A DNA stretch of 64,000 bases from Bacteroidetes bacterium 2013_40CM_41_45. Its GTDB lineage: Bacteria; Bacteroidota; Bacteroidia; AKYH767-A; 2013-40CM-41-45. Position numbers and translations under genes: made by a program. The stretch lies in contig NGFH01000001.1 of the NCBI GenBank assembly GCA_002215675.1, positions 62,001-126,000 of the forward strand, written 5' to 3'. Below, one piece after another: positions 12,454 through 58,804 of the stretch (position 1 is the first letter of the stretch; each line of letters begins with the position of its first letter). Below the pieces are notes generated by a model. It did no database searches. It had not been told where the DNA came from and was given only the letters and a program-made list of their open reading frames with translations.

Positions 12454-12660
12454 TTATTTCTGATTGCGTTTCCTAAGAACATACATCCTGAAAATTCCAT
12501 AGCCAATTAAAATAAATCCAACGACATTCTTGTTTGTTTCTGAAAGCGATTCAAATTTCACAACCGTCAGAAGCGCCACACCTGCAGCCACATAAAAGAT
12601 GGTCATAAAATACATGGCATAGTACTTAAAGTCATGCCGGAAGGGAGGTCTCTCTGTCAT
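12454..12660 (-). CDS. Small two-helix membrane protein in the tonB operon
   Basis: 68 residues with two predicted membrane helices (about 14-36, YYAMYFMTIFYVAAGVALLTVV, and 46-60, VGFILIGYGIFRMYV) and a basic C-terminus RKRNQK. I do not recognise the family. It lies 35 bases upstream of the PstS-like gene and is separated from tonB by a heptamer hairpin, on the same strand as both, which supports a real gene with a role tied to the TonB complex. Confidence 0.7.
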   Translation of the reverse strand: MTERPPFRHDFKYYAMYFMTIFYVAAGVALLTVVKFESLSETNKNVVGFILIGYGIFRMYVLRKRNQK

Positions 12661-12754
12661 GTAAGGCGCTTAAAGCAGTAAAGAAGTGCTGTCTAAAGCT
12701 CAAAAATAACAAAAAGGATGCGGAGTTCAGAATAACTACCTAATACCTGATGCC

Positions 12755-12823
12755 GAGTTATATGTTATACGTTACACGTTATTAGAAAAATCCGTACAAC
12801 ATATAACATATAACGTATAACTT
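12755..12823. repeat. Heptamer-repeat hairpin A, flush with the tonB stop codon
   Basis: Left arm 12755-12785 and right arm 12797-12823 are inverted and each made of about four tandem 7-base units of the form GTTATAY (GTTATAT, GTTATAC, GTTACAC), separated by an 11-base loop. The right arm runs into the tonB stop codon. Possibly an mRNA-stabilising or terminating hairpin between tonB and the downstream genes. Confidence 0.8.
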
Positions 12824-13619
12824 ACTTCAGCGTAAAGTTGATAGGAAGATTGTACTGAACGGCAACGGGCCTGCCATTCTGCTTGCCGATTTTCCAATCG
12901 GGCATAGCGCGCACTACGCGCAGAGCTTCTTCATCGCATCCACCACCAATGCCGCGGATAACTTTTGCATCTTTTATTTTTCCTTCTTTATCCACTACAA
13001 AAGTTACATACACTCTACCTTGTATTCCGTTTTCACGGGCAATAGGAGGGTACTTAATGTTCTTCTGCAAAAATTCAAACAGCTTTGTATCGCCTCCGGG
13101 AAATGCTGGCATCTCCTCAACAATAGTGAAAATTTTCCCGGCATCCGGGTCAACAGTCTCTTCGGGAGGTATTTCATCGGTCTTTGCACCTTCCTGTGTA
13201 ACCGTGCTGATGGTTGTTTCGGAAAGTTTTTCCTGTGGTGGCGGTTCTTCTTCCACCGGTGCGTCTTTTACAACGGGCGGTATAAATTTTACCGTCTCTT
13301 TAAGAGGTTCGGGTGGCGGTGGCGGCGGTGGCGGTGGTGTTTCATCAATAGGGGGCGGCTCAGTGAGATTTACCACCACTTCACTTTTTGCCTTGGTAAG
13401 GTTGTCTGCCGTTTTGCCTATTAACTGAATTATAAACGGAGATAGTATCAGCAGCACAAATCCTATAGTCGAAAAAATAAACGCCCTGGTTAACCGCACT
13501 TCATATAATCTGCGGATGTCGTATGCACCATATTCCTTATTGCGGGTTTCAAAAACAAGCTCCGCCCGCTCAGTGTTCTGTGCGCTTTCCCATGCCGGCA
13601 TTAAAAGATTGCTTGCCAT
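12822..13619 (-). CDS. tonB: Energy transducer TonB
   Basis: 265 residues. A cytoplasmic N-terminus is followed by one membrane helix (about residues 48-68, FIFSTIGFVLLILSPFIIQL), a periplasm-spanning Pro/Glu-rich stretch with a run of nine prolines (about 95-140), and a C-terminal TonB domain (about 170-265) beginning MPAFPGGDTKLFEFLQ and containing GRVYVTFVVDKEGKI. It carries proton-motive energy from ExbB-ExbD to outer-membrane receptors such as those at 21.2 and 37.4 kb. The ATG begins one base after the upstream exbD stop. The small protein at 30077 has a homologous C-terminal domain. Confidence 0.93.
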   Translation of the reverse strand: MASNLLMPAWESAQNTERAELVFETRNKEYGAYDIRRLYEVRLTRAFIFSTIGFVLLILSPFIIQLIGKTADNLTKAKSEVVVNLTEPPPIDETPPPPPPPPPEPLKETVKFIPPVVKDAPVEEEPPPQEKLSETTISTVTQEGAKTDEIPPEETVDPDAGKIFTIVEEMPAFPGGDTKLFEFLQKNIKYPPIARENGIQGRVYVTFVVDKEGKIKDAKVIRGIGGGCDEEALRVVRAMPDWKIGKQNGRPVAVQYNLPINFTLK

Positions 13620-13620
13620 T

Positions 13621-14241
13621 TTATTTCACAAATTTTTGTTGCATCAATTCATATTCTTTCGCCATCATATCCACCAGTGCATACTTTCCAACGTTGGTGA
13701 TGTTACATTCGTCAAGCACGTCAATTACGTTTTTGTACTTGGCTTTGTCATCGGTTTTAATGAGGACAAACAGAGATTGCTTTTCGCCCTGTATTTCCAC
13801 TCTTTCTTTTTTAAATGTCGAATCAGCTAATTGTCCCTTCAAAAGTTTTTTCTCAAGCTCCCTTATTTTATCGTTGGCGTAACTGTTTTTATCCAGCAAA
13901 ACTTTGCGGATTCCTTTGGCTGAAAAATCAGTTTCTTCCAGTTGCGTTTCATCGGGTTTAAATTCTCCGTAATACCAAAAGATTCTGTTTTTATCACCAA
14001 GCAAAACAGTAACCGCATTGTTAATCTTTAACTCTACTTCAGGTTTGTCTGGTTTGACGGGCATATTAATTTCCATCGTTTTCGGCTTGGAGAAAGTGGT
14101 GGTAAGCATAAAAAAAGTGAGCAAAAGAAATGCCAAATCCACCATAGGCGTCATATCAATATGGGTGGACGATTTTTTAGCCCTTACCTTCTTGTGCTTG
14201 CCTTTGCCGCTATCCTGCTGGTCGCTTTGTACTTCAGACAT
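13621..14241 (-). CDS. exbD: Biopolymer transporter ExbD (second copy)
   Basis: 206 residues. The N-terminal membrane helix carries the essential Asp in HIDMTPMVDLAFLLLTFFML, followed by a periplasmic domain with DKNRIFWYYGE, KGIRKVLLDKNSY and VLIKTDDKAKYKNVIDVLDE. A proton-channel partner of ExbB powering TonB. Longer than enterobacterial ExbD (about 140 residues) because of an insert between the beta strands, as is usual in Bacteroidota. Paired with a second exbD gene upstream and directly followed by tonB. Confidence 0.92.
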   Translation of the reverse strand: MSEVQSDQQDSGKGKHKKVRAKKSSTHIDMTPMVDLAFLLLTFFMLTTTFSKPKTMEINMPVKPDKPEVELKINNAVTVLLGDKNRIFWYYGEFKPDETQLEETDFSAKGIRKVLLDKNSYANDKIRELEKKLLKGQLADSTFKKERVEIQGEKQSLFVLIKTDDKAKYKNVIDVLDECNITNVGKYALVDMMAKEYELMQQKFVK

Positions 14242-14383
14242 ATTGCTGATATCGAATCAATACGAATATACGAATTTGTGCCCTTGTTTCTAATGATGAT
14301 GCTATAAACATTGAGTTTCCATACCTATCACCATTGTGTTTTTCCTGATTATCTTATTTAACTTTATTTTCCTATTAATTTTT

Positions 14384-15034
14384 CTAACCACTGGGACCGG
14401 GATTAGGATTAGCTTCAAGATTGGTTATAAGATTGAACCGGTTTATTTTTCGCTCCTGGAAAATTTCGACTACTCTTTTAATAGTGGTATAAGTTGCTCC
14501 CCCGTCTCCACGTATTGCAAACCGCAACTGGTCTTTATCATGATTTTTTTTCGCTGCTGTTTCGGCTGCCGCTATTCTGCCGAATGCAATCCAATCGGCA
14601 AGCTGGTTATTGAGACTGTCTATGGGAATGCCTTTAGTCAGCTTATTCATTTCTTTCCTGCCATGCTCATCGGCATCCAGGTACTGTTTAAGATTCAGAA
14701 CCGGCAAACCTATAGTAGAGAGCAAAGCAAAACGGTGCGCTTCCTCCTCGGTAAACGGAACATTATATTTTTTGCCCAAAGCCGTCAGCAATCCTCTTCT
14801 TGTTTCCTGGCCTTCTATGTTATAAAACACACGGCCTATGGAATCAACCGTTATCATCATCACATTTTCGGGAAGAATTTTTTCTGATATAGATGACGGC
14901 ATATCTACAATCACCGGCTCATCAGGGCGAAATTTTGTGGTGAGCATGAAAAATGTAACCAGCAGAAACGCCAAATCTACCATGGGCGTCATATCCAACC
15001 TTGGACTCTTGCTTGGTATTTTAATTTTAGGCAT
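14384..15034 (-). CDS. exbD: Biopolymer transporter ExbD (first copy)
   Basis: 216 residues. Begins MPKIKIPSKSPRLDMTPMVD, with the membrane helix and channel Asp in DMTPMVDLAFLLVTFFML, then a periplasmic domain with MMITVDSIGRVFYNIEG and RFAIRGDGGATYTTIKRVVE. Same insert-type architecture as the downstream paralogue, to which it is only distantly similar outside the helix. A 142-base gap separates the two. Immediately upstream lies the IVS cassette that splits it from exbB. Confidence 0.92.
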   Translation of the reverse strand: MPKIKIPSKSPRLDMTPMVDLAFLLVTFFMLTTKFRPDEPVIVDMPSSISEKILPENVMMITVDSIGRVFYNIEGQETRRGLLTALGKKYNVPFTEEEAHRFALLSTIGLPVLNLKQYLDADEHGRKEMNKLTKGIPIDSLNNQLADWIAFGRIAAAETAAKKNHDKDQLRFAIRGDGGATYTTIKRVVEIFQERKINRFNLITNLEANPNPGPSG

Positions 15035-15044
15035 TTTGTATTAA

Positions 15045-15498
15045 GTAGGCAGTAAGCAGTGGCAGTTGGCAGTTAGTTCTTTGGTAAAAATTTTTCCGGA
15101 TTACTAGCCATGCTTCCGAGCATTCTGCCAACTTCCTCGTATTCTTTATATAATCTATCTCGAATTTCTAATGACATGTATTTACATTCTTTTGAAAAAT
15201 CGAGCCATATTTGTGTTTCCGTACACTCTCCATCAGAATCCGTCATCTTACTGGAAAAATGTTTTGGGTATTTACGTTTTCTATAACCTTCTCCGATATT
15301 CACGCATACTGAGCGTGATGATCTCCTGATTTGATCGGTAAGAGAATAAATTTCTTCTCTTGGAAATGACTTTGTGACTTCAAAAACTTCCATCGCTAAT
15401 TTAAATGAAAGCTGATACACTTTCAAATCTTTATATCCTTGTTGCATATCCCGTTTTTTTACTGCTTACTGCAACTGCCAACTGCTGCTTGCTAACTA
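15045..15498 (-). mobile_element. IVS-type four-helix-bundle cassette bounded by inverted GCAGT arrays
   Basis: Left array 15045-15077 and right array 15461-15498 contain GCAGT (left) or its complement ACTGC (right) four times each, spaced 7, 6 and 7 bases. A perfect 13-base inverted match GCAGTTGGCAGTT pairs 15062-15074 with 15473-15485, and AGTAAGCAGT (15051) is the complement of 15461-15470. Between them lies one gene for a 23S-IVS-type protein whose stop codon is inside the left array. The cassette fills the whole gap between exbB and exbD. Inferred to be an inserted mobile unit. Confidence 0.78.
15073..15447 (-). CDS. Four-helix-bundle protein (23S rRNA intervening-sequence protein family)
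   Basis: 124 residues with the family hallmarks KDLKVYQLSFKLAMEVFEVT, FPREEIYSLTDQIRRSSRSV, NIGEGYRKRKYPKHFSSK and a C-terminal GRMLGSMASNPEKFL. The family is known from ORFs inside 23S rRNA intervening sequences of Leptospira and Coxiella, where the sequence forms a hairpin removed by RNase III; the protein is a four-helix bundle of unknown function. Here it is not in an rRNA gene but between exbB and exbD. Start ATG at 15447 (MQQGYKDLKVY). Confidence 0.9.
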   Translation of the reverse strand: MQQGYKDLKVYQLSFKLAMEVFEVTKSFPREEIYSLTDQIRRSSRSVCVNIGEGYRKRKYPKHFSSKMTDSDGECTETQIWLDFSKECKYMSLEIRDRLYKEYEEVGRMLGSMASNPEKFLPKN

Positions 15499-15519
15499 AA
15501 CGAAATCAGTCTTTTTCTA

Positions 15520-16317
15520 TTATTTATTCTTTGCTGCAAAATTCTGTACTATCGTGTACCCTGCTTCGTCTATGCCATAGGTTAATGCATCAATCTTATT
15601 GGTGAAGTAGTTGTAAAAAATAATGGCAATAGCAGAGGTAAGAATTCCAAGAGCTGTATTTATAAGCGCTTCAGAAATACCGGTTGAAAGAGCAATAGCA
15701 TCGGGTGCACCTGCCTGGGCCAACGCTTTAAAAGCGCGTATCATCCCGATAACCGTTCCTAACAATCCCATCAGTGTGGCGATGGAAGCGATGGTTGAAA
15801 TAATCACAAGATTTTTTGAGAGCATCGGAAGTTCGAGCGTTGTTGCTTCTTCAAGCTCTTTCTGTATGGCAAGAATTTTTCTTTCCTTGTCCAGCTCTTT
15901 GTCCTGTTCCATTTGCTTATACATATTCAGTCCTGCCTTTACAACATTGGCAATGGAGCCTTTCTGGCGGTCGCACTCCTGTTCTGCTGCTGAAAAATCA
16001 TGATTGGTAACCAGTGCGCGAATGCGGCTTATAAAAGAATCCACCGAACCTTTGCCTTTGGCCGCCCGTATGGTGAGCATCCTCTCAACGGTAAAGGTGA
16101 TTACAATCAGGAACATTGCAATAAGGACCGGCACAATGATTCCTCCTTTGTATATGACACCAAGGTAACTGCCTACGCCTTCCTTGATGGGCTCTCCGGC
16201 AGGATTATTTTCGATAAAGTTGGCGGGATTGCCCAGCACAAATGAAAAAATCATAAATGCTACGATAAGCGCCACAGGAATTACAATGGCAGCAAACATG
16301 GTTTTAATGTTCTTCAT
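15520..16317 (-). CDS. exbB: MotA/TolQ/ExbB proton channel
   Basis: 265-residue inner-membrane protein with hydrophobic segments at about 8-30, 55-75, 160-185 and 200-225. The conserved channel region SIATLMGLLGTVIGMIRAFKAL and GISEALINTALGILTSAIAI identify ExbB/TolQ. First gene of the minus-strand TonB operon; partners ExbD and TonB follow. The gap of 485 bases to the first exbD is filled by the IVS cassette. Confidence 0.93.
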   Translation of the reverse strand: MKNIKTMFAAIVIPVALIVAFMIFSFVLGNPANFIENNPAGEPIKEGVGSYLGVIYKGGIIVPVLIAMFLIVITFTVERMLTIRAAKGKGSVDSFISRIRALVTNHDFSAAEQECDRQKGSIANVVKAGLNMYKQMEQDKELDKERKILAIQKELEEATTLELPMLSKNLVIISTIASIATLMGLLGTVIGMIRAFKALAQAGAPDAIALSTGISEALINTALGILTSAIAIIFYNYFTNKIDALTYGIDEAGYTIVQNFAAKNK

Positions 16318-16442
16318 ATTAAATGTGTTGTTGATTGATTAAAAATTTTTTAGGGATGGCAATAATAGTAAAAAGAGATTAATTCCAAAACGAATGTAAG
16401 GAGGGTTTATTATAAAATAACATTGTATCCATCCTCAAACAT

Positions 16443-17618
16443 TTACTCAAAAGCGCTTATTCCGGTAACATCCATTCCTGTGATGAGCAGGTGGATGTCA
16501 TGAGTTCCTTCGTAGGTGATTACGCTTTCAAGGTTCATCATGTGGCGCATGATGGGATATTCTCCCGTTATTCCCATGCCCCCGTGTATTTGTCGTGCTT
16601 CGCGTGCAATTTCAAGAGCCATGTTTACGTTATTCCGTTTTGCCAGTGAAATCTGTGCAGGCGTTGCGCGGTTTTCATTTTTCAAAACACCCAGTCGCCA
16701 GCAGAGCAATTGCGCCTTGGTGATTTCGGTAATCATTTCGGCAAGTTTTTTCTGCGTGAGCTGAAATGCTCCTATCGGTTTACCGAATTGGATTCTCTCT
16801 TTGGAATATCTTAAGGCCGAATCATAACAATCCATTGCAGCTCCTACCGCCCCCCATGAAATACCATACCGTGCCGAGTTAAGGCAGCCCAGCGGGCCCT
16901 TCAATCCTTTAACATTCGGAAAAATATTTTCTTTCGGAACTTTTACATTATCAAAAACCAGTTCGCCTGTTGCACTGGCGCGCAGCGACCATTTACCATG
17001 CGTTTCGGGCGTGGTGAATCCTTTCATTCCCCGTTCAAGAATCAGCCCGTTTATTTCCCCCTTTTCATCTTTGGCCCATACCACGGCAACATCTGCAAAC
17101 GGAGCATTGCTAATCCACATTTTTGAACCATTGAGAATTACATGGTCGCCTTTATCTTTAAAGTTAGACAGCATGCCGGACGGATTGGAACCGAAATCGG
17201 GTTCTGTTAATCCAAAGCATCCCATCCATTCGCCGGTTGCAAGCTTTGGCAAATATTTTTTACGCTGCCCTTCGCTTCCATACGTGTAAATCGGATACAT
17301 AACCAGCGAGCTTTGCACCGATGCTGTGGAACGGATGCCGGAATCACCGCGCTCAAGTTCCTGCATAATTAATCCGTATGAAACCTGGTCGAGCCCGCCT
17401 CCACCATACTGCTGCGGAAGGTAAGGGCCAAATGCACCGATGTGAGCAAGGCCTTTTATAAGGTGTTTGGGGAATTCTGCTTTTTGCGCCGCTTGTTCTA
17501 TGATGGGCGATATTTCTTTTTTCACCCACTCACGTACACTGTTGCGTACAAGTTTTTGCTCTTCGGTCAGGAGCTCATCTATCCAGTAATAATCGGGTGC
17601 TGTAAAACGGTCGGTCAT
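16443..17618 (-). CDS. gcdH: Acyl-CoA dehydrogenase, glutaryl-CoA dehydrogenase type
   Basis: 391-residue FAD enzyme, most like glutaryl-CoA dehydrogenase (oxidative decarboxylation to crotonyl-CoA in lysine/tryptophan breakdown). Diagnostic stretches: GDSGIRSTASVQSSLVMYPI, GCFGLTEPDFGSNPSGM, LNSARYGISWGAVGAAMDC, QIHGGMGITGEYPIMRHMMN and the catalytic Glu in TYEGTHDIH. Many Bacteroidota carry this gene alone. Substrate is inferred from similarity to GcdH. A heptamer array lies right upstream of its start. Confidence 0.85.
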   Translation of the reverse strand: MTDRFTAPDYYWIDELLTEEQKLVRNSVREWVKKEISPIIEQAAQKAEFPKHLIKGLAHIGAFGPYLPQQYGGGGLDQVSYGLIMQELERGDSGIRSTASVQSSLVMYPIYTYGSEGQRKKYLPKLATGEWMGCFGLTEPDFGSNPSGMLSNFKDKGDHVILNGSKMWISNAPFADVAVVWAKDEKGEINGLILERGMKGFTTPETHGKWSLRASATGELVFDNVKVPKENIFPNVKGLKGPLGCLNSARYGISWGAVGAAMDCYDSALRYSKERIQFGKPIGAFQLTQKKLAEMITEITKAQLLCWRLGVLKNENRATPAQISLAKRNNVNMALEIAREARQIHGGMGITGEYPIMRHMMNLESVITYEGTHDIHLLITGMDVTGISAFE

Positions 17619-56952: not shown

Positions 56953-57720
56953 TTATTTTCCAAAGATTTTTGTAGAATTCTCTGTTGTAATCCGTGCAAC
57001 TTCTTCCACAGAAATATTTTTGACGACTGCTACTTTTTCCGCCACAAGTTTAATATAAGCCGGAAGGTTTCTTTTCCCTCTATGCGGAGCAGGAGCAAGA
57101 TACGGAGCATCGGTTTCAAGTACAACATTCTTTAGATGAACCCCCGCCAGCGTACCATCAAGTCCCGAATTTTTAAATGTTACTACTCCGCCAATGCCAA
57201 GATAAAATCCCAAATCAATAGCGCGATTCGCCTGGTCAACATTTCCCGTAAAGCAATGGAATGCTCCGCAGGGCTGTTCTTTTTTTGTTTCAAGAAGAAT
57301 AGAATAAATTTCTTCAAACGATTCGCGTGAGTGAATGCTAACAGGGAGCTTATAATGATTTGCCAGCTCTACTTGTCTTCTGAAAACTTCTTTCTGCTCT
57401 TTCACAAATGTTTTGTCCCAGTATAAATCAATGCCGATTTCTCCGACAGCAAAATATTTTCTTTCGCTTAGTTTCTTCTCCACCAATTCCAGTTCTGCTT
57501 TCCAATTTTCTTTTACGGAGGTTGGATGTAATCCCATCATGGCAAAACAATTCTTAGGATACTTTTTCTCCAGCGCATGCATTGCATTGAAAGAGCTGCT
57601 GTCAATATTCGGCAGAAAAAAACGTTCTATGCCTGATGTCCTCGCTTCAGCCATCAGCGTGTCCCTGTCGGAATCAAATTCCGGGAGATATAGATGCGTG
57701 TGAGTATCGGTCAAAATCAT
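56953..57720 (-). CDS. tatD: TatD-family metal-dependent hydrolase
   Basis: 255 residues from ATG 57720 (MILTDTHTHLYLPEFD); the longer frame to 57792 would be translated from the heptamer hairpin. Metal ligands in THTH, GEIGIDLYWD, SIHSRES, FHCFTG and ETDAPYLAP. A 3'-5' DNA exonuclease or related hydrolase. Its start codon is flush with the heptamer hairpin at 57721. Confidence 0.9.
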   Translation of the reverse strand: MILTDTHTHLYLPEFDSDRDTLMAEARTSGIERFFLPNIDSSSFNAMHALEKKYPKNCFAMMGLHPTSVKENWKAELELVEKKLSERKYFAVGEIGIDLYWDKTFVKEQKEVFRRQVELANHYKLPVSIHSRESFEEIYSILLETKKEQPCGAFHCFTGNVDQANRAIDLGFYLGIGGVVTFKNSGLDGTLAGVHLKNVVLETDAPYLAPAPHRGKRNLPAYIKLVAEKVAVVKNISVEEVARITTENSTKIFGK

Positions 57721-57804
57721 TGCGAATTTCGGATTGGGAATTGCGAATTGATTAGCAAAAATGAACATAAATCCGCAATTTAAAATTCGCAATCCGCAAT
57801 CATT
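57721..57804. repeat. Heptamer-repeat hairpin C between tatD and the GT9 gene
   Basis: Left arm 57721-57751 (GCGAATT, TCGGATT, GGGAATT and GCGAATT in tandem) and inverted right arm 57770-57804 (AATCCGC, AATTTAA, AATTCGC, AATCCGC, AATCATT). Eighteen-base loop. The left arm begins directly at the tatD start codon and the right arm ends 20 bases before the GT9 ATG. Confidence 0.85.
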
Positions 57805-57823: not shown

Positions 57824-58804
57824 ATGCCCAAGGTTCTCATATTGCGCTTTTCATCCATTGGCGATATTGTCCTGACCACTCCTGTGGTCCGCTGTCTTAA
57901 GCAACAAGTTAAGGGCGCAGAAGTGCATTATGCGATGAAAAAAAACTTTTCCGACGTTCTTGCACATAATCCATATATAGATAAAAAGTTCTTTCTTGAA
58001 GATGATTTATCTGCACTGAATAACGAACTAAAAAAAGAAAAATACGATTACGTTATTGACCTGCATCATAACCTGCGCACGTTGGTTATCAAGCAGCGCC
58101 TGGGGGTAAAAAGTTTTTCATTCAACAAGCTGAATTTTGAAAAGTGGCTGCTGGTGAATTTTAAAATCGACCGGCTGCCCCACATCAGCATCGTTGACCG
58201 CTATATGAAAACCATAGAACCGTTTGGAGTAAAAAGTGACGGGCAAGGTTTAGATTATTTTATTTCAGAAGAAGATGAAAAAATTATTTCATCGCTGCCG
58301 GAAACATATCGCAACGGCTGCATTGCCTTTGTGATTGGCGCAAAACATTTCACCAAGCAGCTTCCCGCCGAAAAAATAATTTCCATCTGCAAAAAAATTT
58401 CATCCCCTGTTATCCTGCTGGGAGGAAAAGAAGATTTTAACAAAGGAAAAAAAATTCTTTCTGCGCTTCAGACTCAAACCCTAAACCTCTGCGGGAAACT
58501 TTCACTCAATCAATCGGCCGCAGTCATCAAACACTCCCGCAAGGTAATTACACACGATACAGGGCTCATGCATATTGCTGCTGCTTTTAAAAAAGAAATT
58601 ATTTCTGTCTGGGGAAACACGGTACCGGAATTCGGAATGGCGCCATATTATGGAGATACTCAAATCTCAAATCTCAAATCTCAAATCTTAAATCTCTCTT
58701 GCCGTCCTTGTACAAAAATCGGTTATGATAAATGTCCAAAAGGACATTTTAAGTGCATGCTGTTGCAGGATGAAAATGAAATTGCCGTTGTGGTGAATCA
58801 GTAA
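57824..58804 (+). CDS. Glycosyltransferase family 9 (heptosyltransferase-like)
   Basis: 326 residues from ATG 57824 (MPKVLILRFSSIGDIVLTTP). ADP-heptose:LPS heptosyltransferase family: LRFSSIGDIVLTTP, AVIKHSRKVITHDTGLMHIAAAF and CRPCTKIGYDKCPKG. Likely adds heptose to LPS inner core with lpxK and kdsB products. A tandem CAAATCT array inserted in frame before the CRPC segment (58661-58695) encodes the odd TQISNLKSQILNLS stretch. Stop abuts the DUF3078 gene on the other strand. Confidence 0.85.
   Translation: MPKVLILRFSSIGDIVLTTPVVRCLKQQVKGAEVHYAMKKNFSDVLAHNPYIDKKFFLEDDLSALNNELKKEKYDYVIDLHHNLRTLVIKQRLGVKSFSFNKLNFEKWLLVNFKIDRLPHISIVDRYMKTIEPFGVKSDGQGLDYFISEEDEKIISSLPETYRNGCIAFVIGAKHFTKQLPAEKIISICKKISSPVILLGGKEDFNKGKKILSALQTQTLNLCGKLSLNQSAAVIKHSRKVITHDTGLMHIAAAFKKEIISVWGNTVPEFGMAPYYGDTQISNLKSQILNLSCRPCTKIGYDKCPKGHFKCMLLQDENEIAVVVNQ
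58661..58695 (+). repeat. Tandem heptamer array inside the GT9 coding sequence
   Basis: Four perfect CAAATCT units (58661-58688) plus TAAATCT (58689-58695). No inverted partner nearby. Its complement (GATTTGA-like) resembles the GGTTTGA array upstream of gcdH. Confidence 0.9.

Follow-up and report, generated by a model that had tools for sequence, protein, structure and literature searches.

To our knowledge, most work on IVS has treated them as a curiosity of rRNA genes, and no role is known for the protein they encode. In rRNA these inserts replace tetraloops. The rRNA IVS of Coxiella, Leptospira and others share two features with the locus described here: a common protein family and an ORF enclosed by complementary ends. 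For the 23S IVS of Coxiella, PMC4990558 describes two or three tandem GACAGAT heptamers before the ORF, depending on the strain, and a 28-bp terminal stem with the RNase III ends inside it; it also names RNase III as the enzyme that excises rRNA IVS. Our copy differs in that it lies between protein genes and not in rRNA; RNase III excision is described for the rRNA IVS and would be a prediction here.

A second comparison is with MITE-autonomous pairs and with REP/RAYT (the REPtron), where RAYT proteins promote the spread of REP sequences. As there, we find dispersed ORF-less arrays and palindromes; over 24 elements of 5 genomes, but not for the window's own element, the unit tends to resemble the arrays around the protein-coding copies of the same genome. 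Unlike RAYTs, the element in our window carries no Y1 (HUH) transposase, and its ends are tandem heptamers that are specific to the locus, whereas REP is one conserved palindrome. Intergenic arrays of 7-nt units are also found as the heptameric repeats of Xanthomonas (GGGAATC), Nostoc and Beggiatoaceae (TAACTGA). PMC4692102 counts 186 heptamer arrays in X. campestris and, among them, convergent inverted pairs in 70 cases, and the S23 protein of this species has a solved structure (PDB 2gsc). What differs from these repeats is the tie to PF05635 genes that we draw here: the main text of PMC4692102 and PMC4679880 does not contain the term "S23", nor does that of PMC4692102 contain XCC0516, and we found no paper in the open-access literature that ties S23/IVS genes to heptamer arrays outside rRNA. 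Each of the three, the rRNA IVS, the heptamer repeats and the S23 family, has been described before; the connection among them is drawn here.

An IVS-type gene between exbB and exbD

The window, that is, the whole 64,000-nucleotide stretch of the Bacteroidetes bacterium 2013_40CM_41_45 genome that we analysed, carries on its minus strand the order exbB, PF05635 ORF, exbD, exbD, tonB. The upstream neighbour is exbB (15520..16317; PF01618, MotA_ExbB); the downstream neighbour is exbD (14384..15034; PF02472), which starts 14 nt past the array described below and is followed by a second exbD (13621..14241; PF02472) and by tonB (12822..13619; TonB_C). The ORF between them (15447..15073, minus strand, 124 aa) belongs by profile search to PF05635 ("23S_rRNA_IVP"; E 1.6e-33) and to TIGR02436, a profile named "four helix bundle protein" (E 6.8e-30), and its PDB matches are 2gsc and 2rld, with 5 chains each. 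In the profile searches it gave PF05635 and bAvd-like matches only, and no transposase, nuclease or reverse transcriptase family. Rfam gave no match at 12500-16500, around the element, and a search of 50,697 phage records found none either.

Four copies of ACTGC on the plus strand (starts 15461, 15468, 15474 and 15481) form a heptamer array at 15461..15485, on the 5' side of the ORF, and four copies of GCAGT (starts 15049, 15056, 15062 and 15069) form the inverted array at 15049..15074 on its 3' side, overlapping the stop codon. The spacing is 7, 6 and 7 nt in each, and the autocorrelation at lag 7 is.64 on both sides. Exact inverted pairs join 15062-15074 to 15473-15485 (13 nt) and 15049-15060 to 15461-15472 (12 nt); since these two perfect pairings cross, one perfect hairpin is impossible. 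Read from the coordinates of the inverted pairs, a stem in register would retain all four GCAGT cores, with mismatches between the cores. In silico, the sense RNA of the element folds better than 100/100 dinucleotide shuffles (z -3.65), with 17.4 expected arm-arm pairs in the sense and 13.8 in the antisense RNA. The locus has a PF05635/TIGR02436 ORF and complementary ends around it, imperfect in register and crossing in their perfect halves, as an IVS element should; it also has heptameric repeats beside the ORF, a mark that we propose here and that is published for Coxiella. Its site is the exbB/exbD gap and not an rRNA helix loop, where a strictly rRNA-resident IVS would lie. The sequence-only reading had described an IVS-type four-helix-bundle gene that splits exbB-exbD-exbD-tonB, with inverted GCAGT/ACTGC arrays of equal spacing that would fold together in a transcript. 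The profile matches of the ORF and its neighbours and the array coordinates confirm this description, and the folding is consistent with the predicted pairing.

The same reading took the gene to be inserted, and we compared the junction in relatives. An exbB match was found in 44 genomes of the same order, of which 29 loci were fetched; in 29/29 of those read, the exbB-exbD gap is 19-127 nt long and holds no PF05635-type ORF. ORF-less heptamer hairpins occupy this junction in three of them (G006, G021 and G014); G014 has no PF05635 match. At a permease-ATPase junction, probably pstA-pstB as judged from PF00528 and PF00005, the gap is 448 nt in this genome versus -76..69 nt in 23 relatives (the six of the 29 fetched that have only 36-39% identity were left out). 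The nuoH-nuoI gap, examined in 27/29 relatives (two at 47-48% were left out, and 8 had no measurable junction), is 426 nt in this genome versus 1-139 nt in 18 of the 19 measurable ones. The nineteenth, G008, has 343 nt with long heptamer arrays and no long ORF, and ORF-less heptamer hairpins are present at nuoH-nuoI in G006 and G005 as well. Comparison of these junction sequences shows that the window's element is an insertion. The relatives read lack the IVS gene at this place, and arrays do flank other IVS genes, as shown below; either finding, had it been reversed, was to count against the sequence-only reading.

This genome has ten PF05635 matches, all on the strand of both neighbours, and the ten diverse copies occupy ten unlike places. 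Besides exbB/exbD, the probable pstA-pstB and nuoH-nuoI, the split pairs include PaaB/PaaA_PaaC, PTPS/GTP cyclohydrolase I, amidohydrolase/FTCD and aminotransferase V/2-hydroxyacid dehydrogenase, among others. Inverted repeats of at least 9 nt surround nine of the ten copies, being weak and partly outside the arrays at two loci (L004 and L008); the tenth (L009) has no inverted repeat of that length, though heptamer-like arrays are visible. In 8/10 copies one flank or more passes 0.64 at a period of 7 or 8, in 4/10 both flanks do, and the repeat unit varies among the ten loci. Exact GGCAGTNNGCAGT was tried as a genome-wide signature and gave 5 hits, two of them the element's own array, versus 2 in a reversed-pattern control; it was rejected because the unit is specific to each locus.

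Period and polarity of the flanking arrays

We examined the class in two sets. The order set comprises 82 of the 123 PF05635 matches of the order, taken strongest first apart from this genome's ten, with contig-edge and weaker matches left out; the named set comprises the best 80 of at least 581 matches from a contig profile search, 79 of the 80 having usable flanks. By record title these best 80 of at least 581 are mostly Bacteroidota, with Fibrobacter, Opitutae, Alphaproteobacteria, Planctomycetaceae, Paceibacterota, SAR324, Syntrophobacterales, Treponema and Oscillospiraceae also appearing; as many of the records are MAGs, a phylum label may be a binning error. The elements are not independent either, since 31 plus 12 loci have common junctions and two pairs of the 162 are the same DNA.

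When the upstream flank was compared with the inverted downstream flank, the median score in the order set (n = 82) was 36 versus 18 for mismatched pairs; 61/82 elements scored above the 95th percentile of the control and 52/82 above the 99th, which 15/82 also exceeded in direct orientation. Among the best 80 of at least 581, the inverted score exceeded the 95th percentile in 41/79 and the 99th in 21/79, and the direct score exceeded the control in 15/79, this control being inflated by common junctions. In both sets the autocorrelation of the flanks peaks at lags 7, 14 and 21. At lag 7 it reaches at least 0.75 in 27/82 and 30/82 flanks of the order set versus 4/80 and 0/76 distant segments, and in 26/79 and 31/79 flanks of the best 80 of at least 581 versus 1/77 and 5/75 controls. 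A period of 7 or 8 at >=0.64 appears on one side or more in 64/82 order elements and 70/80 named ones (best 80 of at least 581), and on both sides in 47/82 and 46/80, respectively; 21/307 control segments have such a period, and 18/82 order elements have no clear periodic array on either side. By this comparison, the array-ORF-array unit is a property of the class.

The arms have a polarity, too: reading inward, they are G-rich in 112/128 scored elements and C-rich in 12, and the arms of ORF-less hairpins are G-rich in 18/19. On plasmids, where 17 of 43 records were read (14 of them cyanobacterial), 14/17 inverted scores exceed the control 95th percentile, and some units are 8 nt long. Four of the loci (L289, L292, L293 and L294) have an 8-nt and not a 7-nt period, and some of the arrays are G-rich. 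Taken over all elements tested, the two arms agree in the order of their units more closely than when the units are shuffled (Wilcoxon 4e-10), but single elements reach p<0.05 in only 8/69 cases. A common unit consensus was sought and rejected as weak (3.9 versus about 3.1 bits in scrambled controls), its signal probably being weighted by the 31-member junction described below. The period of 7 nt (sometimes 8 nt) and the inward G-rich polarity recur, and the unit sequence differs between loci. The expectation that other IVS genes would be flanked by similar inverted arrays has thus held, with 52/82 inverted scores above the control 99th percentile, but the arrays do not form a fixed GCAGT signature: the unit varies by locus, and only the 7-nt (sometimes 8-nt) period is common.

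None of the 162 element loci (82 of the order and the best 80 of at least 581) hit 23S sequence, in keeping with the earlier claim that IVS proteins are not confined to rRNA genes. One locus connects the class to the classical insert. This is a tblastn match on an Azospirillum lipoferum plasmid (L288; E 3e-12 over 68% of the query), and Rfam model RF02541 covers its whole locus, which places it within 23S rRNA. It is flanked by inverted heptamers, with lag-7 values of.68 and.71 and an inverted score of 52, against a control 95th percentile of 35.9 and 99th of 53.9. Since the same package is found in the operons of numerous bacteria and, at one locus of our sample, within a 23S gene, the rRNA insert looks like a branch of a larger mobile family.

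Mobility, placement and dispersed arrays

A sign of movement comes from G026, which has two copies 3.5 kb apart within an efflux operon. They are 92.9% identical over 436 nt, from the inside of the 5' array through the 3' array, and their flanks are unrelated. At one of the two junctions the congener G035 has 12 nt from stop to ATG, an empty site. In this one close full/empty pair, whose DNA pieces are 76-96% identical, no target-site duplication is visible. The comparison reveals one duplication of the unit together with its arrays, and, with the empty G035 site, these sequences support the wider mobile family that the sequence-only reading had suggested. A pair in G004 (C7) was also considered as a transposition and proved instead to be a 1.17-kb duplication (98.9%). 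Clusters of PF05635 genes were seen as well, with three matches within about 4 kb in G004 (C54) and about 14 kb in G026 (C48).

Other copies appear to have stayed in place. The junction between 3HCDH/ECH and thiolase is occupied in 31 loci across Bacteroidota (among the best 80 of at least 581), and because of this, many copies look old and vertically kept. One member of this junction belongs with the signs of mobility: the element protein of Flavobacterium fluvii is 95% identical to one in another context, yet at most 61% identical to the 30 other members. The element proteins are evidently maintained: dN/dS is 0.03-0.16 in 11/14 pairs, the remaining three comprising one without nonsynonymous change and two that are saturated. 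Such low values in these comparisons are a mark of purifying selection and imply that the element protein is used.

Placement is close to the ends of genes. In 115 elements, the distance from the start of the upstream stop codon to the arm has a median of 4 nt and quartiles of -2 and 10; in the window's element, some 35 nt separate the exbB stop from the upstream array. At the 3HCDH/ECH-thiolase junction, 25/31 upstream genes end in TAG versus 12/32 other ORFs of these loci; this TAG opens the array, and by eye the downstream array ends near the next ATG in most. Both neighbours are co-oriented with the element in 53/82 of the order set, 11/82 being antisense, and in 71/80 of the best 80 of at least 581, with 1/80 antisense. 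Several individual settings deserve mention. On cyanobacterial plasmids, PF05635-type genes lie between cas6/cas4 and cas10/cmr3 at three loci (L285, L287 and L292), flanked by inverted 7- or 8-nt arrays; the 23S rRNA IVP is named in a figure legend of a survey of CRISPR-linked genes (PMC10910872), possibly because elements sit in cas loci. On a Nostoc plasmid, an element in antisense orientation (L281) separates subunit genes of ribonucleotide reductase. A Flavobacterium element (L191) lies beside a PF16872 (putative abortive infection) gene and has long ACATTATACAAC-type arrays, partly in direct orientation.

Heptamer arrays are also found away from any ORF of this family. The window has, where tonB ends (12756..12822), a hairpin of GTTATAY heptamers that lacks an ORF, another such hairpin of ATTGCGA-type heptamers (57715..57804) and a single array of AAATCTC (58653..58700). 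The heptamers of the two hairpins are degenerate, and the GTTATAY type recurs in several stretches of the genome. Over 464 kb of this genome (the window and 20 further stretches) we counted 48 arrays at lag 7, and 14, 4 and 7 at the comparison lags of 6, 8 and 9; shuffled DNA gave 1-2. Across 19 genomes of the order, sampled by small stretches of 6-464 kb each, density was 6.8-20 per 100 kb in 6/8 genomes with five or more PF05635 matches and 0-2.5 per 100 kb in 9/9 genomes with none or one. The value of 6.8 is that of G005, where the arrays of an IVS element in one stretch (L246) were left out of the count. Dispersed arrays were zero in the other two PF05635-rich genomes, G004 and G026 (40 kb each), and in 100 kb of G013, which has 4 PF05635 genes. 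Density rises with PF05635 count over the 19 genomes (Mann-Whitney p 0.012; Spearman 0.52, p 0.022), with relatedness ignored. Comparison of genomes thus associates dispersed heptamer arrays with PF05635-rich genomes. Element arms were closer to arrays of their own genome than to those of others in 18/24 elements from 5 genomes (0/200 permutations), a likeness that stems mainly from G008 and one G022 element; for the window's element the value is -0.01.

These arrays raise the strongest alternative, in which the heptamer hairpins are independent repeats, made by slippage or by another mobile repeat, and the IVS ORFs drop into their loops. The ORF-less hairpins at exbB-exbD in 3/29 relatives and at nuoH-nuoI in G006 and G005 fit such an order of events, as does G014, which has a hairpin and no PF05635 match. 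However, in five genomes where 40-100 kb each held no dispersed array, 12/14 elements are nevertheless periodic on at least one side and 11/14 on both, from which we take it that the arrays travel with the gene. In addition, one G026 copy sits with its arrays at a site whose G035 homologue has none. We therefore regard independent repeats as unlikely, while still the alternative to be taken most seriously.

RNA pairing and a proposed mechanism

The sequence-only reading had also raised the possibility that the insert is a host RNA-processing device, in which RNase III cuts the stem, separates the exbB and exbD messages and sets their ratio. The arms are predicted to pair, at the z-score and expected pairs given above, and RNase III excises rRNA IVS according to PMC4990558; RNase III cleavage of such a stem is plausible. 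Against a host device, the insert is absent from 29/29 relatives read and occurs in unrelated operons, and the arms themselves do not look like an RNA duplex under selection. Their mismatches comprise 167 G.T versus 233 A.C, with no G.U excess, and G.U covariation as a proof of RNA selection was accordingly dropped. When every second element of the list was folded (64 elements), pairing was.66 in sense,.67 in antisense and.16 in shuffled RNA. The mismatch pattern gives no sign of selection for pairing in the sense RNA; the lack of G.U excess and the equal pairing of both strands make the arms look like copies that are held alike in the DNA, or that were made recently. A device of this kind is thus very improbable.

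We give even less weight to the idea that the protein serves a reverse transcriptase, such as that of a diversity-generating retroelement. The bAvd proteins of such retroelements are a related four-helix-bundle family, and the ORF matches PF22296 (bAvd) at 37.5 bits and Avd (NF033474) at 30.7 bits, but both scores are under the cut-offs (40 and 80, respectively), and no RVT_1 was found at E <= 1e-8 in this genome, G005 or G008, which have 10, 11 and 9 PF05635 matches. Elsewhere, a weak PF05635 match (24.7 bits, below the cut-off) adjoins an RVT_1 match in G018 (C10:19845-21414), possibly a diversity-generating retroelement with its Avd. Least credible of all is an ancestral gene of the exb system, which would explain the position within the operon and on its strand but not why 0/29 relatives read have the ORF while ten copies occupy ten unlike places here.

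We therefore return to the mobile element, and consider it probable that the window's feature is an intergenic member of the 23S rRNA IVS family: a mobile hairpin element with an S23-type protein that would recognise the array of its own copy. The unit, an inverted heptamer array, the S23-type ORF and a second inverted array, about 430 nt in all, entered the gap between exbB and exbD in the same direction as the operon. Units of the class typically run from the stop codon of one gene to a point just short of the next start codon; in this way neither host gene is disrupted, and transcription of the host genes can carry the ORF along. Either the array or the hairpin folded from it may be what the S23-type protein recognises, and the protein may promote the spread of the element and of ORF-less copies, as a RAYT does with REP. 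The strand-transfer chemistry would then be supplied by something other than this protein. A Y1 transposase was considered as the partner and rejected: Y1_Tnp is present in 34/42 genomes of the order, and the element ORF itself has only its PF05635 and weak bAvd matches. The one Y1_Tnp match of this genome (E <= 1e-8) has an internal stop and lies on contig C1, outside the window. In the transcript, the two arrays could form a stem around the ORF, which RNase III may trim as it does in rRNA IVS; with such trimming, rRNA and mRNA alike would tolerate the insert.

A broader reading can be offered tentatively, at odds a little short of even. Here a widespread class of very small protein-coding hairpin elements would be set apart by the period of the inverted ends and by their polarity, whatever their sequence, and every lineage of S23 protein would retain a heptamer of its own and seed ORF-less arrays from it; the enigmatic heptamer repeats of Bacteroidota, cyanobacteria, xanthomonads and Beggiatoaceae might then be its non-autonomous fallout, and the rRNA IVS a branch that settled in rRNA helices.

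For annotation, our results are a warning that PF05635-type genes in CRISPR, ribonucleotide reductase and nuo operons may be passengers. If the rRNA copies are members of a mobile family that inverted 7-nt arrays mark, the unexplained S23p protein, the unexplained excess of heptamer repeats known from several phyla and the question of how fragmented rRNA arose would join up.
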